In this document: positions 6,701 to 62,365 of the stretch, in pieces
How positions within the stretch are numbered: the first letter of the stretch is position 1
How the letters are laid out: every line of letters begins with the position of its first letter
IMG/VR virus record: IMGVR_UViG_3300042691_040613
Location: 1 to 64,000 of that record
Direction: 5' to 3' (one strand)
From: a virus
Length of the DNA stretch: 64,000 nucleotides
Notes under the pieces: generated by a model
Told to the model about the DNA's origin: nothing
What the model saw: only the letters and a program-made list of their open reading frames with translations
Database searches by the model: none
Made by a program: the position numbers and the translations under genes

Positions 6701-7065
6701 TAGTGCATTGGAACGCGGCTAACAGTGTAATCCTGCTTGTCCACCATGGGGATGACTTCGTTCTGTGTAGTCAGAAACCACTCGAAATTAGTTTGTGACA
6801 CACAAGCACCGCAGAACTCACGCAAGATAACGTGCAGGCGAGACTTAGTTGTGTTTGTTCGCCACCCACAGTTGTTGACTGTTACATCGTCGGGAGTCAC
6901 CGTGGCGATGAGGTTGTTGTGCAGGTAGACATTGCAGCGGTCGATGATGCGATCTTCAGAATCCACAGGATGTGGGAAGTGAATACACTCAACGCGAGTG
7001 TTATCCAAGCTGAAGTTCTTGCGCTCGATGATTGCGCTGAGCATCTTCTTTTCGATGGTTCTCAT
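6700..7065 (-). CDS. Conserved-looking phage hypothetical protein
   Basis: 121 residues from ATG 7065, overlapping the upstream stop as ATGA. The central segment (NNLIATVTPDDVTVNNCGWR, then TTKSRLHVIL) has the feel of a small conserved phage family, but no function is known to me. It contains four Cys. Confidence 0.7.
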   Translation of the reverse strand: MRTIEKKMLSAIIERKNFSLDNTRVECIHFPHPVDSEDRIIDRCNVYLHNNLIATVTPDDVTVNNCGWRTNTTKSRLHVILREFCGACVSQTNFEWFLTTQNEVIPMVDKQDYTVSRVPMH

Positions 7066-7433
7066 GATTCAGTGTTGTAATGGTTGACTACAGCTTCGAA
7101 CGAATCAGGCGAAGCGATTGGTTTGAACCGACGAACTTGGTTTAGCCACTGATCTTTGTGTACCCAGGATTTTGCATCAGGCTCTGAGCCGGGTAGTTCA
7201 TCTTTGAACGTGAGATCCCACGCTTTAGCTAGTTTGATTGCTTCGTTCATGGGACCGTTATACCTGCCGGCCGTCATTCCTGACTCAATGTGAGTGATTG
7301 TCCAGGTGCATTTCTCTTTGCTGAGTTTGCCACCGAAACCGACAACTGGGCGGTGGACAGCCAAGGCTTCTCCCATCCACTTAGTAGGGATCTTGAAAGC
7401 GCCTTCGTTCGTGTTAATCGTCACCATCTTCAT
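7062..7433 (-). CDS. Hypothetical protein
   Basis: 123 residues from ATG 7433 (a TTG at 7442 is possible). It is coupled to the next gene by ATGA. The mixed alpha/beta composition includes several Trp (KWMGEAL, CTWTITHIESG). Family not recognised. Confidence 0.65.
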   Translation of the reverse strand: MKMVTINTNEGAFKIPTKWMGEALAVHRPVVGFGGKLSKEKCTWTITHIESGMTAGRYNGPMNEAIKLAKAWDLTFKDELPGSEPDAKSWVHKDQWLNQVRRFKPIASPDSFEAVVNHYNTES

Positions 7434-7617
7434 GGTCTGCAATGGATTGTTTAAGCTGGTCGATTGCCTGCATCAGGCGATGGGCACGCGCTGAAGTTAT
7501 GCAGTCTTCGAGTGAAGATTCCAATTCATTCAGTGCATGGCGTGCATCTTCAATAGTTAGGAAAGTGTCGACGGCGTACGGTGCGCCATACTCATCATCA
7601 ACGACAATTTGAATCAT
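7414..7617 (-). CDS. Small acidic hypothetical protein
   Basis: 67 residues from ATG 7617, which overlaps the upstream TGA as ATGA. Predicted helices cover residues 20-60 (LTIEDARHALNELESSLED) and the tail is acidic (DHEDGDD). No function visible. Confidence 0.65.
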   Translation of the reverse strand: MIQIVVDDEYGAPYAVDTFLTIEDARHALNELESSLEDCITSARAHRLMQAIDQLKQSIADHEDGDD

Positions 7618-7841
7618 CAGATCATCCCGTGAGAGTCGATGTGGGCTTGAATCATGTCGTCTGTAGGTTCCCAACCTTCGAGATACTCAAGGGCAGGGAT
7701 GATGTTGTCCTCGATCTGCTCGATTACATCTGCGGGAATCGTGTCATCGTGCCGCACGATTTGCTTGAAGCGAGCGAGAGAGTGATACGCGAGAGAGTGC
7801 CAGCTCAAGTTGTAAAGATCGTAAGGAATGTGATTTGTCAT
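7617..7841 (-). CDS. Hypothetical protein
   Basis: 74 residues from ATG 7841 (MTNHIPYDLYNLSW...). It is the first gene after the promoter at 7891-7918 and couples to the next gene by an ATGA overlap. It is acidic in the C-terminal half. Family not recognised. Confidence 0.65.
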   Translation of the reverse strand: MTNHIPYDLYNLSWHSLAYHSLARFKQIVRHDDTIPADVIEQIEDNIIPALEYLEGWEPTDDMIQAHIDSHGMI

Positions 7842-7927: not shown

Positions 7928-8245
7928 CTAGTAGTGGATGGATACTGTTGCGATACCATCAATCGGTACACCTAGGCGATAGGCTGCGCCAGCTGACAAG
8001 TCGATCGAGTTACACTCGCAGCGATCTGTGATTGGTACAGTCAGGGTTCGCCCCTTGTGCTGAACGCGAACCTTTGTGCCGCAAGGTAACCAAGGGTGAG
8101 CAGCTGAAATACCCCAGTGCTGGTAAGTTTGACCGCAGTAAGTTTCTCTCGCGTGATACCACTCGTGGTAAACAGTTGCAGTAACTGGGCGAGCACTAAC
8201 TGGGTTGATGAACATCATAGGGAACAACAAAAGCAATCGTTTCAT
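7928..8245 (-). CDS. Secreted RlpA-like double-psi beta-barrel protein
   Basis: 105 residues with a signal peptide (MKRLLLLFPMMFINPVSA). The mature part carries the barrel signatures: YHEWYHARETYCG, AAHPWLPCGTKVRV at about 48-61, and ITDRCECNSIDLSAGAAYRLG at about 72-92, where Asp74 matches the catalytic Asp of RlpA-type lytic transglycosylases. Four Cys (37, 55, 76, 78) may form disulphides. It probably binds or cleaves peptidoglycan in the periplasm. Confidence 0.8.
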   Translation of the reverse strand: MKRLLLLFPMMFINPVSARPVTATVYHEWYHARETYCGQTYQHWGISAAHPWLPCGTKVRVQHKGRTLTVPITDRCECNSIDLSAGAAYRLGVPIDGIATVSIHY

Positions 8246-8249
8246 GTGA

Positions 8250-8289
8250 TGTTGAAGTGATTGTGTGAGTTGGCCCCGCTTCAGCGGGC
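8250..8289 (-). repeat. Intergenic hairpin element, copy 1
   Basis: The first 30 bases (8250-8279) are identical to copy 2 at 8691-8720. It contains a hairpin (CCCGC/GCGGG on the plus strand, tetraloop TTCA) whose loop holds the TGA stop of the upstream gene. It separates that gene from the RlpA-like gene, so it may act as a terminator or mRNA-processing site and a leader. Confidence 0.7.
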
Positions 8290-8685
8290 ATTAAGGATCG
8301 CTTCGATGTCGATTAGTTTGTTGCTGTTGTCGTAGTAAGTGCAATCAGCTGAGATACCTGCCCGACTATCGTATGAAGTCCACACGATCTTCATGAACTT
8401 GCTGGTCATTAGGCAAGCGTAGTGATCAGTGATGAAGTCAAAGATCTCGTTGTCGCTGTTGATTTCCTCCGTGTCCATTGTCACTGTGAGCTTGTCGCCG
8501 ACAAGTTCTACATAGTTTGAGACTTGATCAGCAAACTCTTCGAAGGAAGCACAATCCTGCAGAGCTTCGGGGATCTCGTCTTCGTGGTTAGTCAAGTAGT
8601 CATAAAGATTAGAGCAGAGATCATTAACGTCGAGCACGTTGTTAATGCTGCAGGTAGCGATTGCGCAGTGTTGTGTGAAAGACAT
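8281..8685 (-). CDS. Acidic hypothetical protein
   Basis: 134 residues from ATG 8685; the stop lies in the loop of a repeated hairpin. The protein is strongly acidic (NHEDEIPEALQDC..., EEINSDNEIFDFITDHY) with several Cys. An acidic small protein in an early-type phage block could mimic DNA or bind a host protein, but this is speculation. Confidence 0.7.
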   Translation of the reverse strand: MSFTQHCAIATCSINNVLDVNDLCSNLYDYLTNHEDEIPEALQDCASFEEFADQVSNYVELVGDKLTVTMDTEEINSDNEIFDFITDHYACLMTSKFMKIVWTSYDSRAGISADCTYYDNSNKLIDIEAILNAR

Positions 8686-8690
8686 TGTGT

Positions 8691-8729
8691 TGTTGAAGTG
8701 ATTGTGTGAGTTGGCCCCGCGTTAGCGGG
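8691..8729 (-). repeat. Intergenic hairpin element, copy 2
   Basis: Identical to copy 1 over 8691-8720, with hairpin CCCGC, loop GTTA, GCGGG. The stop codon of the upstream gene (8730-8732) lies directly next to the hairpin. Confidence 0.7.
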
Positions 8730-8945
8730 TTAGGTTAGGTAGTCGCTGTCTAGATTGTCTTGCTCAAGCTTTAGCTCAATCGCTTCTTGATAAGACTCAA
8801 CGACATTCATAAGATCCTGCAGACGTTGGTGCATACGAGCGTGGAGATACTCGTGATTAATTACAAGTTGCTCAGCATCGTGCAGTAGTGTCCACAGATC
8901 TATTGCTCTAGTTTGTTCACGGACTAGGTTGGCTGATTGTTTCAT
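8730..8945 (-). CDS. Small helical hypothetical protein
   Basis: 71 residues from ATG 8945, almost wholly helical (LLHDAEQLVINHEYLHARMH...). It overlaps the upstream gene by 29 bases. No known family. Confidence 0.6.
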   Translation of the reverse strand: MKQSANLVREQTRAIDLWTLLHDAEQLVINHEYLHARMHQRLQDLMNVVESYQEAIELKLEQDNLDSDYLT

Positions 8946-9108
8946 TGTCTGGGTAGATAAGTTTCTGCTGTTTGAGCAAGATCATGTGATCAAGCGCGTC
9001 ACCTAAAGTCGACCGAATGTACTCATCTTTAAGTGCTGCAAACTCATAAGCTTCGTAGATAGCTGTGTAGAGTTTGTCAAACTGTGTCTGTGTCACGATT
9101 CCCTCCAT
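8917..9108 (-). CDS. Small hypothetical protein
   Basis: 63 residues from ATG 9108, helical (FDKLYTAIYEAYEFAALKDE). It overlaps genes at both ends, as is usual in this block. Function unknown. Confidence 0.55.
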   Translation of the reverse strand: MEGIVTQTQFDKLYTAIYEAYEFAALKDEYIRSTLGDALDHMILLKQQKLIYPDNETISQPSP

Positions 9109-9260
9109 GCTTTACAGCAACGTGAACTGATGTAATAGTCGGCTGAGTAATCACAGATTTGATACTCATGCAGCGTGGCTTTAGCCTCTTTGTGAGACTC
9201 GAACTCGTCAACAGTTTCTAGGTAGTTGTGGTTGATTGAACGGCGTTGGATGTAGTACAT
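9093..9260 (-). CDS. Small conserved-looking protein
   Basis: 55 residues from ATG 9260 to TGA 9093. The pattern YIQRRSINHNYLETVDEFES, then KEAKATLHEYQICDYSADYY and SSRCCKAW resembles a short protein family common in phages, with a helix (ESHKEAKATLHEYQ) between two strands. It overlaps the gene below by 16 bases. Function unknown. Confidence 0.65.
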   Translation of the reverse strand: MYYIQRRSINHNYLETVDEFESHKEAKATLHEYQICDYSADYYISSRCCKAWRES

Positions 9261-9262
9261 AG

Positions 9263-9544
9263 TCAGGCGAAGGTAAGTTCTTCGTAGGGACGGAAGTAGC
9301 GATCCTGTAGATACTCAATGTCTTCGTGAGTTAGTGACTTCGATGCACTGTGAAACACATTCACACAACGCTTGCAATGTAGAAACGTGTCGCTGTATTC
9401 TTGCGGCCACTGTTCGTTGTTAGCTTGAACGTGAACCTCTGTGGTGTTAGCTAAGCGAGCAACGTGGACATTAACGCACCTACCTGACGGTAGTTGTACG
9501 TATTCTGTGCAGCCACGATGAAGATTAAAGACGGAAAGTTTCAT
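9263..9544 (-). CDS. Hypothetical Cys-containing protein
   Basis: 93 residues from ATG 9544. The HCKRCVNVFHSASKS segment offers Cys and His residues that could bind a metal. It ends 2 bases before the next gene starts. Family not recognised. Confidence 0.6.
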   Translation of the reverse strand: MKLSVFNLHRGCTEYVQLPSGRCVNVHVARLANTTEVHVQANNEQWPQEYSDTFLHCKRCVNVFHSASKSLTHEDIEYLQDRYFRPYEELTFA

Positions 9545-26334: not shown

Positions 26335-27858
26335 ATGCCAAGCAGAGAGACATTTGCATATCGCCGTGCACTTAAGTTGCGAGCTGCGAAAGCAGTTGAC
26401 TCTGAGAGCTCTACCATAGATAATATCTTTATGAGAGCTGCTGATGACTTTCATACATTCTGTACGATTATGGATAAAGCCCCAGCAGCCCATATGCTGG
26501 AGTGGCATAAGCATCTAATAACGGGAGACAGTAATCGTTATTTAATCGATATCGCAGGACCAAATCTTGATATTCTTGCTCCGCGAGGCAGCGCTAAAAG
26601 CACTGTACTCAATATGTTTACAGCGTGGATTATAGGTAGGCACACAACAGCAGGTTTACCTCTTCAAATTATTTACTGTTCTTACAACATCGCCACGGCT
26701 ATCCCAAAAAGTCGAATCATTAAACAGATTATCGACTCGTCTACTTACAAAAAGATTTTTCCAAAGGTGCAGCTTCGGTCGGGTATGCAATCAGATATCG
26801 GCTGGAGTATTGATTTTGATTATGCCGGTATCAGCCGTGTGGGTGATGAAGAGTTTACTCTGAGAGCAGCAGGACTACGAGGCTCTATTACCTCTAAACG
26901 TGCTCACCTTGTTATTGTAGATGACCCTATTAAATCTAGTACTGATATTAAGAACCCTACTATTCGAGAGGAGATGAATAACAACTGGAGCTCCGTTATC
27001 GCTCCGATTATTTTTGAAGGCGGTCGAGCTATCTGTCTGGGTACTCGTTTCCACCCGTTAGACATCCACAAAACGATGTTTGTCCCCGATAAGGGCTGGA
27101 AGCAGGTACAACAGGAAGCTCTTACTTATGACGACGACGGGGAGCCTGTTAGCTATTGGCCTGAACAGTGGAGTGTTGACTATTTATTAGGTCAGAAAGA
27201 ACTAGATCCTGTTGCTTTTGCGTTCCAGTATCAGCAACAACCCGTGATGACATCAGATCTGGTCCTTTCACCGGACCTTCTGGTTAAAGGAGATGTTGTC
27301 ACTGAGTTCGATAGTTTGGCGGTGGGCATTGACCTATCAGCCAGTAAAAATGAAACGTCAGATTATACGGCTTTTGTTCTAGGAGGTAGGTTAAAAGATA
27401 AGTACTATATTATTGACGCACACCAGGTGCGCTCTATTGGGAACCTTGAAAAGATAGATCTTCTATGCAAAATGTTGGTTGAGTGGGGGATTCTGCAAGA
27501 AGACAACGATGGTAAGTATTTCCCTACTTACTCGACTTGTACTTTGGTTGTTGAATCAGTTGCTTATCAAGCTTCGCTAGCGGCCGACTTGAGGCGCGTC
27601 ATGTTAAACGAATGGGGTTTGGGTAACCTCCATATTCACGAAGTAAAAGGATTTAGAGGAGATAAGATCGCTCGTTTCCGAGGTACGCTCGGCCTATTGG
27701 AAAATAAAAAAGTCATGTTCAACCGTTTCCGTAAATTTGATGCTTTATTTGATCAGTTAATAAATATCGGAGCGACCTCTCACGATGACTTACTCGATGC
27801 TTACACACACCTAGTGTGCTATCTGCAGCGACGCGGTAACTTTGAGATGGAGTTCTGA
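26335..27858 (+). CDS. terL: Terminase large subunit
   Basis: 507 residues from ATG 26335. The packaging ATPase has Walker A LAPRGSAKST at residues 81-90, Walker B LVIVDDP at 192-198 and coupling motif CLGTRFHP at 234-241. The RNase H-like nuclease has VGIDLSASKNETSDYTAF (Asp333), LVVESVAYQ and DDLLDAYTH near the C-terminus. It cuts concatemers and drives DNA into the prohead. The gene ends on an A shared with the next ATG (TGATG). Confidence 0.95.
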   Translation: MPSRETFAYRRALKLRAAKAVDSESSTIDNIFMRAADDFHTFCTIMDKAPAAHMLEWHKHLITGDSNRYLIDIAGPNLDILAPRGSAKSTVLNMFTAWIIGRHTTAGLPLQIIYCSYNIATAIPKSRIIKQIIDSSTYKKIFPKVQLRSGMQSDIGWSIDFDYAGISRVGDEEFTLRAAGLRGSITSKRAHLVIVDDPIKSSTDIKNPTIREEMNNNWSSVIAPIIFEGGRAICLGTRFHPLDIHKTMFVPDKGWKQVQQEALTYDDDGEPVSYWPEQWSVDYLLGQKELDPVAFAFQYQQQPVMTSDLVLSPDLLVKGDVVTEFDSLAVGIDLSASKNETSDYTAFVLGGRLKDKYYIIDAHQVRSIGNLEKIDLLCKMLVEWGILQEDNDGKYFPTYSTCTLVVESVAYQASLAADLRRVMLNEWGLGNLHIHEVKGFRGDKIARFRGTLGLLENKKVMFNRFRKFDALFDQLINIGATSHDDLLDAYTHLVCYLQRRGNFEMEF

Positions 27859-28834: not shown

Positions 28835-30088
28835 ATGACTGCAACTCCTAGCGCGTCCAATAAGCAACGTTTTGACGTTCTGCGCAAAGCCGGTACGCTT
28901 TTCGGTCTTGACCTTAGTGGGTTGTTTGAAGAAGGGGAAGGTGAGGGAACCGGTTTTGGTGGTTTAGTGCCTTCTTTTGAAGTTACTAGTTTTGTAAAAG
29001 GGCGTAGTCCTGGGACTTTAACGTACGAAACACCAAAAACTCCTGCGCAGGAGACAACTTTTAGTTTAACTGCTCCCACGGAAGCGCTGCCTGCTCCTAC
29101 TTCCACACAGCCTGCTTCCCTTGGCGGGAGTCAAAATATAACAATCAACATGCCTCGTTTTGAACCTGAACAGGAGGCAAAGAAGACCTATAACGTTGAT
29201 GTAACTAAAGGTCAGAGTTCTACATTATTCGGCCATCAAGATTATTTCCGAAATCTTGAAGCTGGGGTACCAAAAGAGTACCTGAAGGATTGGGTTAGTC
29301 AAAATACTGGATTACTAGGAGAAGGTAATAAACCAGGCAAAGGGGGTCTCTATGACGAAATGATGGCCGGTGATGTTAAGTTCCCTGGCTTCCTTCCGTC
29401 ATCCTCCGCTGGCACTGCAGGTGAGGGCGGAACTGCTGAGTCCACGCAAACTACCGCTACAGACACTACTTCTGCGTCTAGCACCACTGAGCCTACTGTT
29501 CGTTTAGCGGGTCAGAAAGTTAAAGCACTTGGTGGTGCTGGTCCTGTGCTCAGTAAGAAAGAAGCTGAGAGCATAGCCAAGTCTCAGGGACGTACTGTTG
29601 CCCAAGTGATGGCAAGTGCACAGAATAAAAATATCGCTATGGGGGCTGGTTTAGTTAACGCTCTTACTAGTGGAAAGATTTCCGCTACTCCATATAGCGC
29701 AGCTGCAAAAGCACTGGCTCCGATGCAAGGCTTAAGACTCAATCAAGGGTCAGCTTACGCCGGTTTTAGTACTACTGCCACGCCGGCAGTTGCTCCAAAT
29801 AAATTTGGAGGATCTGGTCAGCCCGCGACTACCACTACTACCCCGATTGTTGTTCCCCGAAGTGTGTTAGCTGGAACCGCCCAAGGCGGCGGTCAAGCAA
29901 GTAGCCAAGGTGGCGGCGGAGGCCAAGGCGGCGGTGGTCAAGGCGGAGGCGGCGGCCAGGGCGGTGGAAATAAAGGGGGCGGTGGAAGCCAGGCCGGCGG
30001 TCAAGGAGGCGGTCAAGGCGGTGGAAATAAAGGTGGCGGAGGCGGCCAAGGTGGCGGAAATAAAGGCGGAGGAGGTAAGAATAAGTAA
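28835..30088 (+). CDS. Virion-type protein with long poly-Gly tail
   Basis: 417 residues from ATG 28835. The N-terminal half has ordered segments (GHQDYFRNLEAGVPKEYLKD), then Thr/Ser/Pro linkers and a helical section (KKEAESIAKSQGRTVAQVMA). The last 70 residues are a tandem Gly-rich tail built on QGGG, GGQGG and GGGNKGG units (DNA about 29880-30085). Such tails are flexible or form polyglycine-helix bundles. Likely a decoration, fibre or head-associated protein. Confidence 0.65.
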   Translation: MTATPSASNKQRFDVLRKAGTLFGLDLSGLFEEGEGEGTGFGGLVPSFEVTSFVKGRSPGTLTYETPKTPAQETTFSLTAPTEALPAPTSTQPASLGGSQNITINMPRFEPEQEAKKTYNVDVTKGQSSTLFGHQDYFRNLEAGVPKEYLKDWVSQNTGLLGEGNKPGKGGLYDEMMAGDVKFPGFLPSSSAGTAGEGGTAESTQTTATDTTSASSTTEPTVRLAGQKVKALGGAGPVLSKKEAESIAKSQGRTVAQVMASAQNKNIAMGAGLVNALTSGKISATPYSAAAKALAPMQGLRLNQGSAYAGFSTTATPAVAPNKFGGSGQPATTTTTPIVVPRSVLAGTAQGGGQASSQGGGGGQGGGGQGGGGGQGGGNKGGGGSQAGGQGGGQGGGNKGGGGGQGGGNKGGGGKNK

Positions 30089-30111
30089 TCGATTTTTACC
30101 GATAAGCCACC

Positions 30112-30351
30112 ATGGACCTTTCTCCTGATCCTGTTAATCACCCCCGTCACTACACTCACGGGGCAATCGAAACCATCGATTACATGGAGTCGTGCCTGAC
30201 GGAAGAAGAGATACGTGGTGGCTACAAGTTAAACGTACTGAAGTATGTGTCGCGTGAGCGCCATAAAAATGGCCTAGAAGACCTGAAAAAAGCTCAGTGG
30301 TATTTAGATCGATTGATCACTTATTTAGAGAAAAACCAAGAGCCGCGTTAA
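30112..30351 (+). CDS. DUF3310 protein
   Basis: 79 residues from ATG 30112. The family pattern is clear: VNHPRHYTHGAIETIDYMES at the start, then LNVLKYVSRERHKNGLEDLK and KAQWYLDRLI. DUF3310 proteins are common in phages and are sometimes called nucleotide kinase-like; no enzyme function is firmly known. It sits, unusually, inside the virion gene block. Confidence 0.85.
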   Translation: MDLSPDPVNHPRHYTHGAIETIDYMESCLTEEEIRGGYKLNVLKYVSRERHKNGLEDLKKAQWYLDRLITYLEKNQEPR

Positions 30352-31980: not shown

Positions 31981-34206
31981 ATGGCCAGCTCGACCGAAAC
32001 ACGAAAAAGATTTACTGAAATCTTAGAGGCCTCGCGCACTCAGGATCGAAGCAACCAGGCTTCGACGATGGTTGTTCTGAGCCATCTTCAGCAGATGACT
32101 CTTCTGATGATCAAGAAGGGTCTAGCTTTTTATTGCGATCAAGATACATTTAGAAGCCGTACACGATTTTTAGAAGACATAATTGCTCTAAACAAATTAG
32201 ATATTCGTTTTCCTGCGATTATTCGTAATTTTTTAATCGACGGTTGCGGTCTGTTTTACTTCCGACCAGACCCAAAACTTAAATATCAGATTTATTTCTT
32301 CAACAAAAATCAATATCGTGTGTACCATGACGTTAATGGCAACGTAGAAGAAGTCATTATTGTCTATAGCTATAAAGTAAAGAACGCAAATTTAGGCTTA
32401 CCTAGTAATTCTTACGGGCAGAACAAGCGTTATGTACGTTTAACGATTACTGCCGATGAAATTAGTGAGGTTGAAACTGATACCGAGCTCAGTTTTGATC
32501 TTGAACCTGGCGCTGTTCTGACTCCAGCCAAAAAAAGACCTAACACACTTGGTTTTATTCCCGCTGTTGAGGTTTTAAACAAGCCAAACGCCAGTGGTAC
32601 TGAAGGTGAAGGCGAATTTGATCCTTTTATGGAGCAAATTTGTTTACACGATGAGCTGACACGCAACATCGCCAAAAATATTGAGTTTTTTGGCAACCCG
32701 ACGCTGATTAGCTCTCGTCCACGGAGTGATCTGGTCGAAGCTAGTGATGCTCAGAGCACTTTTAGGCCCACAATCAGCAGTCAGAGTGGTTTTGCCGGTG
32801 TCGACAGCCCCTCGACTCGAGTAAGTGAGCCTTTTGGCTCGAGCATGGGCGGCGGTTTGCGTGTTCCGCGCATTATTGCCAACGTTGAGCCGTCTGACCG
32901 AGTTGGTTACATGACACCGGACCCCGTTAACGGGGATATGAACCGGTATGCCCTTCTTTTACGAGAAGAGATTCGCACAGCCTTAGGCGGTGTGGATGAG
33001 ATTTCAATTTCTGCTGGTGCTACTGCCACGGAAATTAAAGGTTTGATGGGTCGAGCTCAGGCCACGGCTCTCCGGAAGAACAAAAGTTTCCTTACGTATG
33101 GGTTTAATCGTCTCTTGGAAATGATGATCTATCACCAGGAGACTATCTTCCGTGAGTCGTTTATTGCGGCTGCTGGTTTAAAAGAGCCGAAGCCGCCGAA
33201 AGAACAAACCGAAGAAAATATTGAGAAATATCAAAACGCGTTAGCTAAGTTCGAAGCAAAAGTTACTCAAACTATTCAGCTAGCTCTTCAGGAAAACAAG
33301 GTCCCTCCCGGAGTTATCGGGCTTCCAGAAGATGGGGATCGAACTGTTACGTATCGATACCAGGGCGACGTCTACGAAGACACTGCTTACGATATAAACC
33401 AGAAGTCCATCGTTGTACGTAACTTACAAGAGCTTGGTGTGGATAGCATCGAAGCTCTTAAATTCCTTTTTCCTGAAAAAACTGACTCTGAGCGAGCTGA
33501 AATGTTGAAGGGTTTCCCCTTCCGCATGGTGCAACAGACACAATCAGCAATGCAACAATTTCTGGTATTATTAAGCCAGATGTTGCAGTCGCCGCATCCA
33601 CTTGCGCCTAATCAGCCACTTGCGGCTGATCCTAGACTGAACATAACTCCGCTCCTTTACAGGACATTCGACCACCTCGCGGAAGAACTAACTTACTCGG
33701 GTAGCTATGAGCCAGCAGATCCAAGCTTCGATCCCGAGCCCGGTCTCCCCGGCGGTAGCCCCGGCGGCAACTTCGGACCAGGGCTCAACCGCCTACCCGC
33801 AGTGGGTGGCGCAAACCTCTACCCCGGCGGTAGCTTCGGTTCCTACAGCCCAACCGCCGTCGCAGGTGGCACCGGCTACGGGCCCTTCTACCAACAGCCA
33901 GTACAACCAGTTAACGTCGCAATCCTCCCCCAGCAATCCGTGGGAAGCAGCGATGGGTACCCTGGAACGGGTGCTCTCGCAGGTGAACTCTCAGTCCCCC
34001 AGCCAGGTTCAACAGTCGCCTTACCAGGCAACTCAGCAACTGGCTACTCAACTGAGCAGTCAGAATTTACAGGCCCAACCCTGGGCTTACCAGGAGCAGC
34101 AGGCAGCGCAGACCTGGCCTACCAGCGCCTCTCCGACCCAAGCTTCCTCGCAAACTTCTACGGCCCCGCAAACGAGCGTAAGCCCCGTAACCGCCGAGGT
34201 CGTTAG
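31981..34206 (+). CDS. Portal protein with Gly/Pro-rich extension
   Basis: 741 residues from ATG 31981. Residues 1-570 suit a portal (head-to-tail connector) protein by size, place after terL and content: ring-forming helical stretches (AIIRNFLIDGCGLFYFRPDP, ATATEIKGLMGRAQATALRK) and late helices QTQSAMQQFLVLLSQMLQS. From residue 576 the sequence turns into a Gly/Pro/Ser-rich tail, coded by DNA that also encodes the first half of the next gene in another frame. The tail is probably disordered and a late addition. No search could confirm the family. Confidence 0.75.
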   Translation: MASSTETRKRFTEILEASRTQDRSNQASTMVVLSHLQQMTLLMIKKGLAFYCDQDTFRSRTRFLEDIIALNKLDIRFPAIIRNFLIDGCGLFYFRPDPKLKYQIYFFNKNQYRVYHDVNGNVEEVIIVYSYKVKNANLGLPSNSYGQNKRYVRLTITADEISEVETDTELSFDLEPGAVLTPAKKRPNTLGFIPAVEVLNKPNASGTEGEGEFDPFMEQICLHDELTRNIAKNIEFFGNPTLISSRPRSDLVEASDAQSTFRPTISSQSGFAGVDSPSTRVSEPFGSSMGGGLRVPRIIANVEPSDRVGYMTPDPVNGDMNRYALLLREEIRTALGGVDEISISAGATATEIKGLMGRAQATALRKNKSFLTYGFNRLLEMMIYHQETIFRESFIAAAGLKEPKPPKEQTEENIEKYQNALAKFEAKVTQTIQLALQENKVPPGVIGLPEDGDRTVTYRYQGDVYEDTAYDINQKSIVVRNLQELGVDSIEALKFLFPEKTDSERAEMLKGFPFRMVQQTQSAMQQFLVLLSQMLQSPHPLAPNQPLAADPRLNITPLLYRTFDHLAEELTYSGSYEPADPSFDPEPGLPGGSPGGNFGPGLNRLPAVGGANLYPGGSFGSYSPTAVAGGTGYGPFYQQPVQPVNVAILPQQSVGSSDGYPGTGALAGELSVPQPGSTVALPGNSATGYSTEQSEFTGPTLGLPGAAGSADLAYQRLSDPSFLANFYGPANERKPRNRRGR

Positions 34207-34633
34207 TCACTTCGGTATCGAAGCTCCTGGTATCCTCAATCAGTACGCTTGTTCTCTTGAGGATCTCCTGGTAGAGCAGGCTCAGCAACTGGATGTTCTT
34301 ACTGCTCGCCACGATGCGATGCAGACCATCCTGACTGATCCTGACCATCTGGCTAACTACACTGATCGTTACTTCACCGAGGTTGTACCCGTGGATATCG
34401 ATAGTGATAGCTCCATTGGTTATCAGCAACAGGCTGAGGCTTATCAGCCTCGCTATGACATGCCTGCTCCTCCTGCGGGTGCTGGCGGTTCTACTGTTGG
34501 CTCACAGCCTGAGCAACAGTGGAATCAGTTCAGCGAAGTCATGAATCGCAGCCCTGAGAACGCCTGGCGTTATCTGAGCCAAATGGGTCCTGAAGCGCTT
34601 CGCAGCAAGCTGCTCTTTATGGATCCCGCTTGA
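33707..34633 (+). CDS. Overlapping virion protein, scaffold candidate
   Basis: 308 residues from ATG 33707, in the +1 frame relative to the portal gene. The first 167 codons overlap the portal frame over 500 bases. That part is Gln/Pro/Ser/Ala-rich. The unique C-terminal half is ordered (GIEAPGILNQYACSLEDLLV, then AQQLDVLTARHDAMQTILTD; ends PENAWRYLSQMGPEALRSKL). Being between portal and capsid, a scaffolding or head-associated role is likely. A +1 frameshifted portal fusion is an alternative. It ends just before a strong terminator. Confidence 0.7.
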   Translation: MSQQIQASIPSPVSPAVAPAATSDQGSTAYPQWVAQTSTPAVASVPTAQPPSQVAPATGPSTNSQYNQLTSQSSPSNPWEAAMGTLERVLSQVNSQSPSQVQQSPYQATQQLATQLSSQNLQAQPWAYQEQQAAQTWPTSASPTQASSQTSTAPQTSVSPVTAEVVSHFGIEAPGILNQYACSLEDLLVEQAQQLDVLTARHDAMQTILTDPDHLANYTDRYFTEVVPVDIDSDSSIGYQQQAEAYQPRYDMPAPPAGAGGSTVGSQPEQQWNQFSEVMNRSPENAWRYLSQMGPEALRSKLLFMDPA

Positions 34634-36138: not shown

Positions 36139-37254
36139 ATGTTCATCGATAATGATTTCCCGAAGATTCTTGGTGCTGAACTGTACCGTCCTCACCCCGC
36201 ATACATCGTTGAGATGGCTGCGGAGCCTGTGGTTGTTCACGATTTTTCGAAGCAACCCGGCCAGACTGTGCAGCTTGACCGTTACCGCTTCTTCGGTAAC
36301 CCCGGCTCCAAAGAATCTCGCGAGCGTACTGCTGAGCAGACCATCGGTACTGCTAACAGCCGCAATATCGTGAAGGATAAGGTGCTCGTGACGCTTCGCG
36401 AGTACACCGGTCCTGCTGACCCGAGTGACCCCACTCAGCCCAGCACTTTCAAGATTGCACGTGAAACGCTGATCACTGCTCAGCGTCTGCTTCTTGATAC
36501 CGGCAACCTCACCACCTTCCACCAATCCATTGGTAGCCTGACGCTGCTCGACGACTATCGTCGTTGGCGTGATCGGGTGTTCATCAACGAACTCCTGAAG
36601 GCTGTTTCTAAGGGTCAGTCTTCTGACACCCAAGGCGGTTACTACTTCCCTGGTGACCTTGCCACTGGTGCTCTGAGCTATACCAACGCCGAGCAAGCTA
36701 AGTTCGACGTTAAGGATGACCTGCTACGCGTGGTGAAGAGCCTGCGTAAGCGGAACACTCCTACCTTCCAGGATGGTTTCTATCGCTGCGTTTGCGATCC
36801 GACCTTCCTGATGCACCTTCGTCAGAACAGCGACTTCCGCGAAGTTGCTCGTTATCCTGGCAACGGTCAAATCAACCCCCTCATGTCCGGGATGCAGCCC
36901 AACGCTGCCCTGTACATGGGTCAAGGCTTCGGCCAAGCCACCTTCGTGGCTGGCGAGCCGATCATGCCCACGGGCTTTGTGTTTGAAGGCGTGCGCTTCT
37001 TCGAAAGCACCAACATGCCTACTCAAACCCAGAACGCGACCATCGCATCGGCTACCAAGGCTTACAATGCAGCCGTTGGTATCTTCTTTGGTCCGCAGGC
37101 CGTTGGTGTTGGCATCGGTGGCAACAACGCCCAGGTGCTTCTCAACAACAACGACGATTTCAGCCGTTTTATCATGATGATTTGGAGCCTGTACGCAGGT
37201 TTCGAACTTCTGAACGCTGACTTCGTCACCGTTGGTTACTCTTTCGACGCTTGA
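36139..37254 (+). CDS. Major capsid protein (HK97-fold candidate)
   Basis: 371 residues from ATG 36139. The start (PKILGAELYRPHPAYIVEMA) and PGQTVQLDRYRFFGNPG recall the N4-gp56-like capsid group, and the end AYNAAVGIFFGPQAVGVG fits its late strand. The gene uses mostly C-ending codons, unlike its T-ending neighbours, as expected for the most highly made protein. It lies between head genes and is followed by a strong ribosome site and decoration gene. Identification is by position, size and motifs, not by search. Confidence 0.8.
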   Translation: MFIDNDFPKILGAELYRPHPAYIVEMAAEPVVVHDFSKQPGQTVQLDRYRFFGNPGSKESRERTAEQTIGTANSRNIVKDKVLVTLREYTGPADPSDPTQPSTFKIARETLITAQRLLLDTGNLTTFHQSIGSLTLLDDYRRWRDRVFINELLKAVSKGQSSDTQGGYYFPGDLATGALSYTNAEQAKFDVKDDLLRVVKSLRKRNTPTFQDGFYRCVCDPTFLMHLRQNSDFREVARYPGNGQINPLMSGMQPNAALYMGQGFGQATFVAGEPIMPTGFVFEGVRFFESTNMPTQTQNATIASATKAYNAAVGIFFGPQAVGVGIGGNNAQVLLNNNDDFSRFIMMIWSLYAGFELLNADFVTVGYSFDA

Positions 37255-37268
37255 GGAGGTAACTAACA

Positions 37269-38147
37269 ATGACGATTAACCCTAACCAGATCTCGGTTGC
37301 CAAGATTTATCCCGGCAACTACACCAACGTTCTTCGTTACTGGCACGAAGAAAAGACCGTACAGTTCGAGAACGCCAACGGCGTTCAGACGAGCTACACC
37401 AACCAACCCGTTGGTGGCCCTGTGGGCGTGGTCTTCCGTCCCGGTTGGATTGCTCAGCAAGCCATCGGTTACGTCGACCTGAGCTATCAGGCTCTCGGCA
37501 CCAATAACCAGCTGGATTACTACACCCAGCCTTATGGTTCCGGTCAGAACGGGGCTAACCAGCCCTTCCTGAACGCCAACGTCATCATCCCTTCCCCCGA
37601 TTTCCACAAGGACGTCCGGGCCGACATCACCAACGGCATCACCGTGCCTTCTGGTGCTTTCGTGTACCGCACTTCCCTCCGTGTGGACGGCGGCGATGTG
37701 GTGAGCTCCGGCGTTGCTGGCGGCGCTGCCGCACCTCAGCTGACCCTGATCCCCGCTGTGGGCCAAGGTCTCCGCAACACCACCACTGTTGTGTCTGGTC
37801 AGTTCGGTACCTCCGTTACTGGTTCTGACAGCCGCATCGCTAACGGCAGTGTGGCCTCCACCAACATCATCAACTCGAGCAGCCTGTCTGCTCTGACTGC
37901 TGATACTCAGTGGAAGCTGTTCACCACCACCAACCTGGGCGGCGTTGCCGCTTCTGGTCTGGCTCAAGGTTCGGGTATCTACGATCCCCGCGCTGGTGCT
38001 GGCAAGCTGTCCGGCAAGAACAAAGCTCTTGCCATCTGTGAAGTGTGCTGGATCGTTCCCGATCAGCCGCCCGAGCGTTCTGATCTGGCTCTGCAGCCTG
38101 CAGGTGTCATCGAATCTCAGATCTACACCTCGACTTCTCCGACCTGA
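37269..38147 (+). CDS. Probable capsid decoration or cement protein
   Basis: 292 residues from ATG 37269, preceded by a strong ribosome site (TGAGGAGGTAAC). Codon use is as C-biased as the capsid gene, so expression must be equally high. The product is Gly/Thr/Ser-rich and beta-like (GNYTNVLRYWHEEKTVQFEN; AGVIESQIYTSTSPT). Together with the capsid gene it forms a unit closed by the terminator at 38173. Confidence 0.65.
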   Translation: MTINPNQISVAKIYPGNYTNVLRYWHEEKTVQFENANGVQTSYTNQPVGGPVGVVFRPGWIAQQAIGYVDLSYQALGTNNQLDYYTQPYGSGQNGANQPFLNANVIIPSPDFHKDVRADITNGITVPSGAFVYRTSLRVDGGDVVSSGVAGGAAAPQLTLIPAVGQGLRNTTTVVSGQFGTSVTGSDSRIANGSVASTNIINSSSLSALTADTQWKLFTTTNLGGVAASGLAQGSGIYDPRAGAGKLSGKNKALAICEVCWIVPDQPPERSDLALQPAGVIESQIYTSTSPT

Positions 38148-38172
38148 TACAGTCAGATCGCGAAACAAGGGG

Positions 38173-39738: not shown

Positions 39739-41487
39739 ATGTCCTTACTCGGTAAGTTGGCCAAGCTTGGCTTCCGGTCTGCTCAGGACATTGCAGAGCG
39801 GGTTATGCCGATGGTCCTGCAGACTGGCGATAAGGTGTTGGTGGAGAACACTACTAACGCTCTCCGTAAAATGGGTGCGTCGGTTCCGAGCCAGCCTGGT
39901 CCTGGTTTGCTTGGAACATTAGAAGTTAAAACTTCCCGCCAGTTAGGTCAAGCACCCAAACCCGCTTTCGGTCCTGGTGCAAACAATCCCGCAGCACCTG
40001 CGGGCGCACGTCCAACCAATACTCTTGTCACCCAGCCTTTCCAAGGTCCGCGCACTCGCGGCGGCGAACTTGTAAGGACTCAGGCTCCTGCAGCTGCTCC
40101 TACTACTCGCACTCAGTTCACTGAGGATTTAATCACTCAGCCCACGATGCAGGGCGCTCAGCGTGCTCCGGTGCAGGGCCCTTCTATGACTGGTACTCCT
40201 GTTCAGGGTCAGCTTGATCTCCGTTTCCCATCTGGGGCACGTTCGACTGCTGAGTTCACCACGGCTAAAGGAGCCCTTCGCCCAGAAGGTACTCCGATTG
40301 GGGGTCAGCCTTATCGCGGTGGCCCTGTTGCTTCTCAGGCAAACTTAGAAGTTTTTAATCCTCCTGCGCTGCAAGGCCCCGGTCGCGCTCCTATGCAGGG
40401 ACCTTCCGAGGCTGCCGGAGTTCAAGGTTCTTTTTTCCTGGATAACGTTCCCGATATCTGGAGCGGTGGATTCCGGATGCGTCCAGAACTCATCCGCCAA
40501 CTTCCTAAAGAAGTGCAAGAACGTATCGGCACCTCGATGGTACGCGAGGCGGCTGACTTAGGTCCCGTTGCTCCCCGTCCTGCATTCGGCCCTGACGCAG
40601 GTCCTGCCCCCGTGGATTCTGCGGCCGCTATGGCTTTTGCTCGTAACGCTGCAAGCGGTGCTGAGCTTGTTGATCTCGGTGCTCTTCTTAACAATCCTGC
40701 TTTCCGTGCTGCTACAGGCGCAGCTGGTTTAGGTCTCTTCGGTGCCGGTATCGCAGGCATGTCGATGGGTGGGAATCGTACTGGTGAGACGACTGCCGGC
40801 GCACCTCCTGAGCTTCCCTTGCCTCCTTCTGTTAACGCACCTTTGTTTGCCGAGTCTGATGGGTCTCCTCTTGGGGATGGGGCTCCTGGTGTTACTGCTC
40901 CGAACCCTCCTGCTCCTGGCAACATCGACCCCACAGCTCCCGCCCCCGTGGTCACCTCCGGCGGTATAGAGCGCGAGAGTGCCATGCGTGCTGCCCTTGC
41001 TCAGAATGCTCCAGCTGCTGCCGCAGTCCAACGCGCCACAGAACCTATGAGTCCTGAGCGTTACAAGAGTATTGAAGATTACTACGCAGCGCGTCAGGCT
41101 TATGCTGGCTCTGCTGATAAGCGTCGGGAGCTCATGCGCTATATGGGCGGTCAGTCTCCTGCTGTCGGCAGTCAACTGGCTAGCTGGGCGCAATCAAACC
41201 CTGCTTTAGCTTACGAATATCAGCGTCGTCAACTGGTTAACCCGGCGGCTAATCAGCAAAGCTCTGAATCCATTACGACCACTGTTGTGACTACCCCTAT
41301 GGGTTCGGAGACAGCCGCAAACGCTGTGGGCAACGCTGAATCTACAGCAGATGCCGCTCTTAAAGGGACTCAAGAAGCTCAAGCTCTGAAGTATGCAACA
41401 ACCCCTAATGTCCAACCCAATCTTCAACGGGTGCAGGACTTTATTCGTACTCAAGCACCGCGTGCAGCAATGTACGCCGGTTATTGA
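39739..41487 (+). CDS. Large Pro/Ala/Gly-rich virion protein
   Basis: 582 residues from ATG 39739. N-terminal helix (LLGKLAKLGFRSAQDIAERV), then about 200 residues of Pro/Gln/Gly-rich, mildly repetitive sequence (APVQGPSMTG, RAPMQGPSEA), a hydrophobic Gly-rich patch near residue 330-345 (AAGLGLFGAGIAGMSMGGN) and a helical end. Residues about 475-500 (ASWAQSNPALAYEYQRR) match the end of the protein at 13658. It could be an ejected internal protein or tail component. Confidence 0.6.
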   Translation: MSLLGKLAKLGFRSAQDIAERVMPMVLQTGDKVLVENTTNALRKMGASVPSQPGPGLLGTLEVKTSRQLGQAPKPAFGPGANNPAAPAGARPTNTLVTQPFQGPRTRGGELVRTQAPAAAPTTRTQFTEDLITQPTMQGAQRAPVQGPSMTGTPVQGQLDLRFPSGARSTAEFTTAKGALRPEGTPIGGQPYRGGPVASQANLEVFNPPALQGPGRAPMQGPSEAAGVQGSFFLDNVPDIWSGGFRMRPELIRQLPKEVQERIGTSMVREAADLGPVAPRPAFGPDAGPAPVDSAAAMAFARNAASGAELVDLGALLNNPAFRAATGAAGLGLFGAGIAGMSMGGNRTGETTAGAPPELPLPPSVNAPLFAESDGSPLGDGAPGVTAPNPPAPGNIDPTAPAPVVTSGGIERESAMRAALAQNAPAAAAVQRATEPMSPERYKSIEDYYAARQAYAGSADKRRELMRYMGGQSPAVGSQLASWAQSNPALAYEYQRRQLVNPAANQQSSESITTTVVTTPMGSETAANAVGNAESTADAALKGTQEAQALKYATTPNVQPNLQRVQDFIRTQAPRAAMYAGY

Positions 41488-60195: not shown

Positions 60196-60775
60196 AACTT
60201 TTATTCGTCGCTACAACATACCTGATGTTACTCTGTGCGATGAAATCATAAAATGGTTTGAAGACCACCCTGAGAAACAAGGGACTGGTGTTGTCCAGTC
60301 ACGAGAAGGTAAACCTATAGTAAATAAAGATTATAAAGATGGTACGTGTATTTCTGTGAATGATATTAATTATGCTTACACTCAGCCACCTCTGCGTTCG
60401 TTTCTTATTTGGCTTTGGGACTGTGTGAATCTGTATTTAGAAGATTTCCCCGAGCTTAAAAATTCTTGTTTTGCTATGAGAGAGGGGTTTAATATTCAAA
60501 GATTTCTACCCCCAAGTCAAGGGTTTAAAGTTTTTCACCATGAAAGGATATCGTATCAAGTCTGTCCTCGTTTACTTGTCTTTATGCTTTATTTAAACGA
60601 TGTAGAAGATAAAGGCGGTACAGAATTCAAGTACTACAACCATGTTGAAAAAGCTCAACGCGGCAAATTGTTGATTTGGCCAACAGACTTCACCCACACC
60701 CACCGTGGTGTAGTATCGCCAACAGAAAAAAAGTACATTATTACTGGCTGGTATGGTCTAATCCCTGCAGAGTAA
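60185..60775 (+). CDS. 2OG-Fe(II) oxygenase, prolyl-4-hydroxylase-like
   Basis: 196 residues from GTG 60185, overlapping the previous stop. QGFKVFHHERI carries the His-x-Glu iron ligands (Glu instead of the usual Asp), followed by RLLVFMLYLNDVEDKGGTEF, LLIWPTDFTHTHRG (distal His) and KKYIITGWYG at the end. This pattern is well known in cyanophage oxygenases. Substrate unknown. It converges with the carbamoyltransferase gene (18-base overlap). Confidence 0.85.
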   Translation: MSTETFIRRYNIPDVTLCDEIIKWFEDHPEKQGTGVVQSREGKPIVNKDYKDGTCISVNDINYAYTQPPLRSFLIWLWDCVNLYLEDFPELKNSCFAMREGFNIQRFLPPSQGFKVFHHERISYQVCPRLLVFMLYLNDVEDKGGTEFKYYNHVEKAQRGKLLIWPTDFTHTHRGVVSPTEKKYIITGWYGLIPAE

Positions 60776-62365
60776 TCTCATATTTTCTGGAGTATACAGA
60801 TAATCTATCTTTGTGTTATTTAAAGTACTTACAGCGTCTTCAAACGTTTCTATTATTGGTTGCTTATCGACATTAAATGAAGTATTACCTAGTATAGGTA
60901 CTCCTGTAATTTCGTAAAAATTTTGTATTAGCTCAAAGTAATTTTTATTTTGTTCTTTTGTTATTGTTTGTATCCTGCACGTACCGTCGACATGTACTAT
61001 GGCAGGTATCTTTTCTTTTTTTAAACACGTAGCATTTAGAGTCATAAAAGGGTTTTCTTCGATATCAAACCATTTTTCTACTTCTTCCTGAAGTATAGTA
61101 CCTGCAAAAGGCCTAAAACTTTCTCTGTTTTTTATTCGGTTGATTATATCTTTACCGTTTGGCAGACAAGGGTTAAAAAGAATAGAACGGTTTCCTAATG
61201 CTCTAGCACCTGCTTCTGACCTCCCCTGGAACAGAGCGACTGTTTTTCCCTTGGATAACAAAAGAGCTACTTCTTTACTTGTTGTCCTGTCTCCGATTTC
61301 TTTAAAAAGTAACTCCTTTTTTGGCCCTAGGTAGATATTCTCTAACTTTCTCTTTGTCTGGTCTTTTTGCTCAGCGTGGTGCACCAACTTAGCTGCGCCA
61401 TACGATAGACCTCCGTCACCAGCCATAGGGTCAATAAAAAAATTAAACTCGCTTAGTTTATCTTTGTAGTATTTATTGGCTACTATATTTAATGCAAAGC
61501 CTCCAGATAACACTATATTTTTTGTGTTACTCAGTTTTATTGCTTTTTTTATGTAACTTAAAGCTTTTTCTTGTGTTGCTTTTTGTACGGCAAATGCTAG
61601 ATCTGCTTGTAGCTGTCCCCAATCGTTTGTAATAAGCTCAGGGTAACTGTAGGTGTTTATCTTATTGTCATTAGTAAAAAGATTTTTATTCGCTTCTTTT
61701 TTGGGGCCTGTCAGTATCTCTGGGATGTTTTTATTTGCTGCTCCGTATGCTGCTAACCCCATGGTTTTACCACAGTCTAGATTTCTAAATCCTTGATGAT
61801 TAGCTACTGCTTGATACATACCGCCTATATCGATATGGGAAGTTATTTCGACTTCTGTGTTATGAAGTAAGGAACTAACAGCGCTAAAATTACTTCCTCT
61901 GTGCGGATCGACAACTAGTTTTTTGTACAGCAGCCTGAAATTATCTGGATACGAGGCTTCGTATACGGATGTTGTTTCAGCACCAAAAGCTCCGTTATTT
62001 AGCGCGAATTCTGAACCTCTCCCATCAAAAACTACGCAGACTGCTTCAGTGAAACCAGAACTGTAGAAAGCCGAAGCAGCGTGGGCTAAATGATGTATAT
62101 CGTTGTGAACACTAAATCGTTTAAAAGTTATTCCATTTTTTCTAAGTAAATGTTTTATGAAGTTTTCATTTCCGCAGTGAGTTACTATAACTGAATCTAT
62201 TTCTGTGACTATATCTTTTATTTGACCTATACATTTTATAGGTTCTGAGTCATATTTTATTTTTGATAATCTTTCTTCCTCTATGAATAGTTCAACTTCC
62301 CCATTAATTAGTAAGCAAACACTTGAATTATGCTTACCACAATGTATTCCTAATACTGAGTTCAT
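60758..62365 (-). CDS. NodU/CmcH-family carbamoyltransferase
   Basis: 535 residues from ATG 62365. N-terminal Kae1-like part: VLGIHCGKHNSSVCLLINGE, HHLAHAASAFYSSGF at 91-105 and VVFDGRGSEF near 112-121. C-terminal part: GRSEAGARALGNRSILFNP and NTSFNVDKQPIIET. These enzymes move a carbamoyl group from carbamoyl phosphate, through carbamoyl-AMP, to sugar or antibiotic hydroxyls. Cyanophages often carry it. It overlaps the oxygenase gene upstream by 4 bases, so the two act in sequence or on one product. Confidence 0.9.
   Translation of the reverse strand: MNSVLGIHCGKHNSSVCLLINGEVELFIEEERLSKIKYDSEPIKCIGQIKDIVTEIDSVIVTHCGNENFIKHLLRKNGITFKRFSVHNDIHHLAHAASAFYSSGFTEAVCVVFDGRGSEFALNNGAFGAETTSVYEASYPDNFRLLYKKLVVDPHRGSNFSAVSSLLHNTEVEITSHIDIGGMYQAVANHQGFRNLDCGKTMGLAAYGAANKNIPEILTGPKKEANKNLFTNDNKINTYSYPELITNDWGQLQADLAFAVQKATQEKALSYIKKAIKLSNTKNIVLSGGFALNIVANKYYKDKLSEFNFFIDPMAGDGGLSYGAAKLVHHAEQKDQTKRKLENIYLGPKKELLFKEIGDRTTSKEVALLLSKGKTVALFQGRSEAGARALGNRSILFNPCLPNGKDIINRIKNRESFRPFAGTILQEEVEKWFDIEENPFMTLNATCLKKEKIPAIVHVDGTCRIQTITKEQNKNYFELIQNFYEITGVPILGNTSFNVDKQPIIETFEDAVSTLNNTKIDYLYTPENMRLLCRD

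Follow-up and report, generated by a model that had tools for sequence, protein, structure and literature searches.

The last 500 nt of the portal gene in an S-EIV1-like cyanophage also encode, in another frame, the N-terminal part of a second protein, ORF2. Judged from comparison with its relatives, this overlap is an old and real case of dual coding with an internal start. We consider it likely that two separate products are made from the one stretch of DNA, with ORF2 as a probable scaffolding protein. The DNA analyzed here (the window) is a 64-kb stretch out of a 69,852-base virus record. Portal, ORF2, terminase, and major capsid protein (MCP) are all homologous between the window and S-EIV1; the terminases of both match phrog_38, and the MCPs of both match phrog_1357. 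A hypothetical protein of S-EIV1 is 47.5% identical to the window portal over 78% of the query; no other match to the portal reached E ≤ 1e-5 in a search of 50,697 phage records. By these matches, the window virus is an S-EIV1-like cyanophage. The region is laid out as follows:

26335–27858, plus strand: terminase large subunit gene (phrog_38, E = 7e-76), upstream context.
31981–33705, plus strand: folded core of the portal, residues 1–575 (phrog_20475, E = 1e-166; phrog_64 portal, E = 2e-5; AlphaFold model matches solved portals).
33706–34206, plus strand: portal tail, residues 576–741, predicted to be disordered, Gly/Pro/Ser-rich with a basic end, overlapping ORF2.
33707–34206, plus strand: dual-coding overlap; synonymous rates drop in both frames, and substitution classes fall between the single-coding nulls.
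33707–34633, plus strand: ORF2, 308 aa, +1 frame, conserved in relatives; probable scaffolding protein by inferred function.
36139–37254, plus strand: MCP gene (phrog_1357, E = 1.5e-23), downstream neighbor.

The two-frame overlap had been pointed out in a first-pass annotation of the window, and it is present as described. The portal frame is open from 31981 to 34206 (741 aa) and the ORF2 frame from an ATG at 33707 to 34633 (308 aa); ORF2 is in the +1 frame relative to the portal, and the two share 500 nt, the portal stop included. Both sequences had been called low-complexity, which their composition bears out: the portal tail contains 18% Gly and 14% Pro, and the ORF2 head contains 18% Gln, 17.5% Ser, 14.5% Ala, and 12% Pro. 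The reported shift toward C is also clear at portal-frame third positions, where C goes up from 0.22 before the overlap to 0.49 within it and T drops from 0.36 to 0.13. Past 34206, ORF2 is again T-ending (0.43), in line with the normal codon use noted there.

Relatives came from several IMG/VR queries; GTDB genomes supplied nine loci, and the annotated record of S-EIV1 (KJ410740, locus L082) was added. The IMG/VR relatives are the best 80 of 413 matches, of at least 596, of 82, and of 125 (two queries), together with those of a pattern scan, whose yield is likewise an at-least figure; statements about every relative refer to every relative fetched. All 453 loci fetched contain the portal core; 380 reach the portal stop and 73 of the 453 end before it. 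Because the loci are not all independent, some sharing one contig, we also give counts of distinct sequences. The clade letters A–D are labels of this analysis, with S-EIV1 in clade A and the window in clade C. A fifth clade (L360, L361, and L369–L453) enters counts only, among them the 376/380, 283/306, and 303/306 given below. L360–L368 are S-EIV1-like contigs inside genome bins labeled Euryarchaeota, Bacteroidetes, Rhodobacteraceae, and others, and are probably misbinned virus DNA.

With an overlap of at least 400 nt required, both frames were open in 376 of the 380 loci (306 of 310 distinct sequences), at lengths of 452–680 nt. The comparison with homologs suggested at first pass did not turn up the refuting pattern named there, homologs in which one frame is consistently closed by a stop; only four of the 380 loci have a short overlap. 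There is one frame break in L218 and there are several in L179 and L354, and both proteins resume in shifted frames. In L107, a single portal-frame stop replaces a tyrosine codon nine bases before the contig end, and we take it, without proof, for an end-of-contig error. Relatives with only ~ 44% portal identity to the window still keep the overlap, and in S-EIV1 it measures 554 nt from the ATG to the portal stop. In L330, L331, L333, and L334, the portal tail ends early (GGGVSVPASS) and is without the basic C-terminus; the overlap there is still 452 nt.

The first of the two proteins is recognizable as a portal. Its phrog_20475 match spans nearly the whole ORF, the match to phrog_64 (portal protein) is weak, and the gene is placed between the terminase and major capsid genes. 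Foldseek matched the AlphaFold model (46 sequences, pTM 0.51) to the solved portals of SaPI1/80alpha, T7, SPP1, and cyanophage P-SCSP1u, the best match being the SaPI1 portal (E = 8.8e-10), with TM-scores of at most 0.51 among the matches listed. The last core helix of the model ends at residue 573, with disorder beyond it; pLDDT is below 50 at 570–672, 674–719, and 725–741, and there are internal low-confidence stretches too (e.g., 239–316 and 463–487). The first codon of ORF2 falls in portal codon 576, at the margin of the predicted fold. Of 225 distinct sequences, 222 carry a net charge of +3 or higher over the last 25 aa of the portal. Ribosomes on the portal gene would produce a portal with a core to about residue 573 and a disordered tail of ~ 165 residues with a basic end, and this tail would hang into the procapsid interior and could contact scaffold or DNA there.

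Some features elsewhere in the window may be recorded here. At 29910–30128, the Gly-rich repeat end of ORF 28835–30088 is open in another frame too, as a 72-aa Lys/Glu/Ala-rich ORF. Two ORFs of ~ 300 aa, at 37263–38168 (minus strand) and 37269–38147 (plus strand), are fully antisense to each other, possibly as a codon-bias effect of the plus-strand gene. ARAGORN placed a tRNA with anticodon CTA ("Pyl") at 39871–39958 on the minus strand, antisense within ORF 39739–41487; it is probably spurious. A Nol-like carbamoyltransferase gene (60758–62365, minus strand; phrog_1601, E = 4e-145) has the least MCP-like codon use of 98 ORFs scored.

ORF2 was harder to place. It was modeled with low confidence (mean pLDDT 47, pTM 0.21) as a disordered head and a helical C-terminal part, in which two regions stand out:

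34184–34375, plus strand: ORF2 helices, residues 160–223, predicted at low pLDDT (about 49–60).
34508–34618, plus strand: ORF2 C-terminal helices, residues 268–304, with the highest pLDDT of the model (72–83 in blocks 271–300).

Scaffolding proteins are commonly acidic and partly disordered and have a helical C-terminal part, although these properties are not strictly defining. ORF2 fits this profile, as far as a low-confidence model can tell, and its pI is 4.16. The gene lies between portal and MCP, with a median of 727 nt from the ORF2 stop to the MCP match. When 98 ORFs and four gene parts of the window were scored, the non-overlapping part of ORF2 had the most MCP-like codon use after the MCP itself. 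Across relatives, the codon use of ORF2 was more MCP-like than that of the portal in 147 of 148 loci and more than the median of the other ORFs in 138 of 148; only in 48 of these 148 loci did it outrank all other non-MCP ORFs. This codon use points to expression higher than that of the portal. Since ORF2 is acidic, is encoded between portal and MCP, has capsid-like codon use, and combines a disordered head with a helical C-terminal end, it is probably a scaffolding protein, which we infer to be its most likely role; that it is a virion or assembly gene of some kind is plausible. No match that would support a scaffold came up in PHROG or Pfam or in a profile search of PDB sequences, and a fold search yielded no significant match, so we describe ORF2 as working like a scaffold and do not file it as a member of a known scaffold family. 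Other ribosomes would start at the ATG at 33707, inside the portal gene, and make ORF2 with its disordered Gln/Pro/Ser/Ala head and helical C-terminal half; the product would be an abundant scaffolding protein that guides capsid assembly.

Dual coding could also be real if ORF2 were another head protein, acting in the internal core, in ejection, or in head completion. Such a role would agree with the want of homology to any scaffold family, and several further ORFs of the region are likewise without an assigned family. The scaffold reading is favored by the position between portal and MCP in the relatives and by the acidity, partial disorder, helical C-terminal end, and MCP-like codon use of ORF2, and we regard a different head function as a serious but unlikely contender.

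We then considered how ORF2 would be translated. The relevant signals lie just upstream of, and at, its first codon:

33689–33709, plus strand: in-frame TAA (33689–33691) and ATG start (33707–33709) of ORF2; no strong Shine–Dalgarno in this clade.

The ATG or GTG of ORF2 lies no more than nine codons after an in-frame stop in 276 of 277 loci. The lone exception, L039, keeps the ATG, and its ORF2 frame is open further upstream. When the fifth clade is included, the start falls at most 10 codons after the stop in 303 of 306 distinct sequences; the other three are open further upstream. The sequence AAAAGGAGATGAGTTATG is nearly invariant in clade A, as is AAGGAGTTAAGTTACAGTG in clade D. At the Lys-Glu codons AAG GAG, third positions are invariant in 69 (clade A) and 50 (clade D) distinct sequences, where variation would be permitted by the portal protein. 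The AAGGAG motifs and following starts of clades A and D look like Shine–Dalgarno plus start sites inside the portal gene. Third-position conservation in the seven codons after AAGGAG, compared with the 22 before, was 0.97 versus 0.80 in clade A and 0.90 versus 0.76 in clade D, and the corresponding values were 0.92 versus 0.82 in clade C and 0.84 versus 0.72 in clade B; these seven codons hold the ORF2 start and the first ORF2 codons, and part of the raised conservation is dual coding itself. In the window's clade, the ATG is conserved but without a strong Shine–Dalgarno site.

At the level of sequence, the conserved stop–start arrangement and the Shine–Dalgarno-like site give ORF2 a translation start of its own. 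The first-pass annotation had also offered a +1 frameshift giving a fusion; on this reading, ORF2 would be made mainly as a portal–ORF2 fusion by ribosomal frameshifting within the overlap. The +1 frame is open throughout, and a shift anywhere in the overlap would indeed yield such a fusion. A fusion needs neither the stop and start ahead of ORF2 nor the AAGGAG and start that are nearly frozen in two clades, and these therefore favor internal initiation; the codon use of ORF2, with its indication of expression above the portal's, also speaks against a frameshift. With a conserved start of its own after an in-frame stop, ORF2 does not need frameshifting, and we think it very unlikely to be the main route. 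A minor portal–ORF2 fusion made besides the separate ORF2 is possible.

Selection on both frames was examined by comparing synonymous change inside and outside the overlap, a check proposed with the original observation. Synonymous change was reduced in the overlap in both frames, each measured against its own gene outside it. In the three largest clades, which comprise 97 of the 105 representatives, portal-frame synonymous differences fell from 0.44 to 0.23, from 0.52 to 0.27, and from 0.51 to 0.28 between the upstream part and the overlap. In the ORF2 frame, they fell from 0.63 to 0.41, from 0.70 to 0.35, and from 0.68 to 0.23 between the downstream part and the overlap. We dropped an OLGenie-like ratio for ORF2 alone as a test, as a portal-only control also yielded 0.39–0.93 with it; because of this bias, we used simulated nulls. 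The rate of portal-silent, ORF2-changing substitutions over that of portal-changing, ORF2-silent ones was 0.56 in clade A, 0.72 in B, 1.30 in C, and 0.79 in D. With simulation parameters that were chosen rather than fitted, the same ratio was 1.7–3.3 under portal-only coding and 0.43–0.47 under ORF2-only coding, and all four clades thus fall between the two nulls. In the same type of simulation, 10% change gave the unselected frame a mean of 1.4–2.2 stops per lineage (portal-only) or 1.0–2.3 (ORF2-only).

Both frames showed purifying selection in the overlap, and the weakest signal came from the clade A portal tail. There, NN/SN was 0.70, compared with 0.85 for ORF2-only coding and 0.49–0.51 in runs with selection on both frames or on the portal (0.6 or 0.5). 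Clade A is therefore close to the ORF2-only expectation, and its portal tail appears weakly constrained. Two predicted helices of the overlap are of note here:

33938–33988, plus strand: ORF2 helix, residues 78–94 (NPWEAAMGTLERVLSQV in the window), predicted; among the most constrained parts of ORF2 in the overlap.
34108–34134, plus strand: portal tail helix, residues 710–718, predicted; ORF2-changing substitutions are frequent here.

Across the stretch of the ORF2 helix, the portal-silent, ORF2-changing rate was only 0.05–0.14 in the four clades, and its motif was present in 225 of 225 distinct sequences from these clades (283 of 306 with the fifth). The two helices lie at different places, each facing a part of the other frame in which change is better tolerated. 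Over the whole overlap, the constraint profiles of the two frames were not significantly anticorrelated (Spearman −0.02 to −0.44 in the four clades, all negative, all p > 0.1).

Synonymous change in the overlap could also be lowered by a signal at the RNA or DNA level in place of a second protein. The drop spans ~ 500 nt and its substitution classes are frame-specific, overlaps vary in length while both frames stay open, and ORF2 goes on as a conserved protein beyond the portal stop, which leaves such a signal highly improbable as the explanation.

We also asked how readily the frames would be open by chance. Synonym shuffles that preserve the portal protein left the +1 frame open with a median p of 0.008 (54 representatives), and resampling of codons by upstream usage gave a median of 0.015, with values up to 0.51. 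In the reverse shuffle of ORF2 codons, the portal frame was open with a median of 0.012 and values up to 0.09. Among 225 distinct overlaps, preselected as open in the portal and ORF2 frames, the third forward frame was open in none and held 6.9 stops on average; of the three antisense frames, two were never open and one was open in 8. Openness in two frames is more than chance. That only one frame codes, the other being open through biased low-complexity composition, is the least probable reading of all: the overlap is low-complexity and up to 0.65 of the portal-preserving shuffles stay open for single sequences, but synonymous change is lost reciprocally in both frames, neither simulated null is matched, the third frame is never open, and nearly all loci that reach the portal stop keep the overlap. 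The overprinting put forward at first pass is upheld on three grounds: both frames are conserved, synonymous change is reduced in each, and the internal start is conserved.

For the origin of the overlap, the first pass had offered two routes, loss of the portal stop or growth of ORF2 into the portal gene, and neither the relatives nor codon use separates them. A search for outgroups with portal and ORF2 against the 50,697 phage records returned only S-EIV1, a genome collection added nine relatives of the same family, and among the relatives fetched there was no intact one without the overlap. Codon use gives divided testimony: in the window, the ORF2 head is more genome-like than the portal tail (0.40 vs. 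0.25), whereas the portal tail is more genome-like in 202 of 253 loci, and neither frame is genome-like. The position of the ORF2 start at the end of the portal fold would fit loss of the portal stop; it would also fit an ORF2 start that was tolerated only beyond the fold. We lean slightly toward birth by portal stop-loss, without claiming it. More doubtful still is a fuller scenario in which stop loss extended the portal across the 5′ half of the scaffold gene; the overprinted tail, kept in every sampled clade, would then act on the scaffold in the procapsid, and the shared DNA would tie translation and evolution of portal and scaffold together.

The closest known arrangement is that of the spanins (i-spanin/o-spanin, e.g., of phage P2), as described in PMC6139136. 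There, as here, the overlap is terminal, same-strand, and out-of-frame, with a second gene that starts inside the first, passes its stop, and is often missed or mis-started in annotation (PMC6139136). The same account gives a stop-codon mutation extending the first gene as one possible route to the embedded spanin type (PMC6139136). Unlike the spanins, which are lysis proteins, the overlap described here joins a portal and a probable scaffold. In lambda, the nested scaffold Nu3 is translated from an internal start in the head gene C, in-frame, and shares protease sequence. ORF2 likewise has an internal start in a head gene but is out-of-frame, and two unrelated sequences result. The T7 portal, gp8, is not known to have a 165-residue tail, and the T7 scaffold is encoded by a separate gene, gene 9. 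The C-terminal crown of gp8 is inside the capsid, touches core proteins, and ends in 42 residues that are not seen (PMC6702177); a portal fold with a disordered C-terminal end is what the two portals share.

S-EIV1 itself (KJ410740) has a homologous portal and the same overlap, and in its record just 402 nt of ORF2, starting past the stop of the portal, are annotated. The gene spans 6748–7725 of the record and is annotated only from 7324, the conserved start lying 576 nt upstream. In the same record, the MCP (8245–9471) is apparently misannotated as a minus-strand gene at 8245–9006 and a plus-strand gene at 9001–9471; a single plus-strand frame spans both and encodes a homolog of the window MCP.

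Overlaps between genes of DNA viruses are mostly short, with a median of 15.6 nt in a survey of virus genomes (PMC8903798), and near-identical phage overlaps common to several families reach at most 185 nt according to PMC7017920. In a literature search on portal/scaffold overlaps and S-EIV1, which did not extend to the S-EIV1 genome paper, we found no title or abstract describing this pair. A half-kilobase dual-coding overlap in phage head genes, available in 306 distinct copies, offers a natural data set for tests of how two proteins are held in one sequence. It also matters for annotation, as the second protein is truncated in the sole isolate record found. Should ORF2 be the scaffold, portal and scaffold, which must meet during assembly, would be partly encoded by the same bases.
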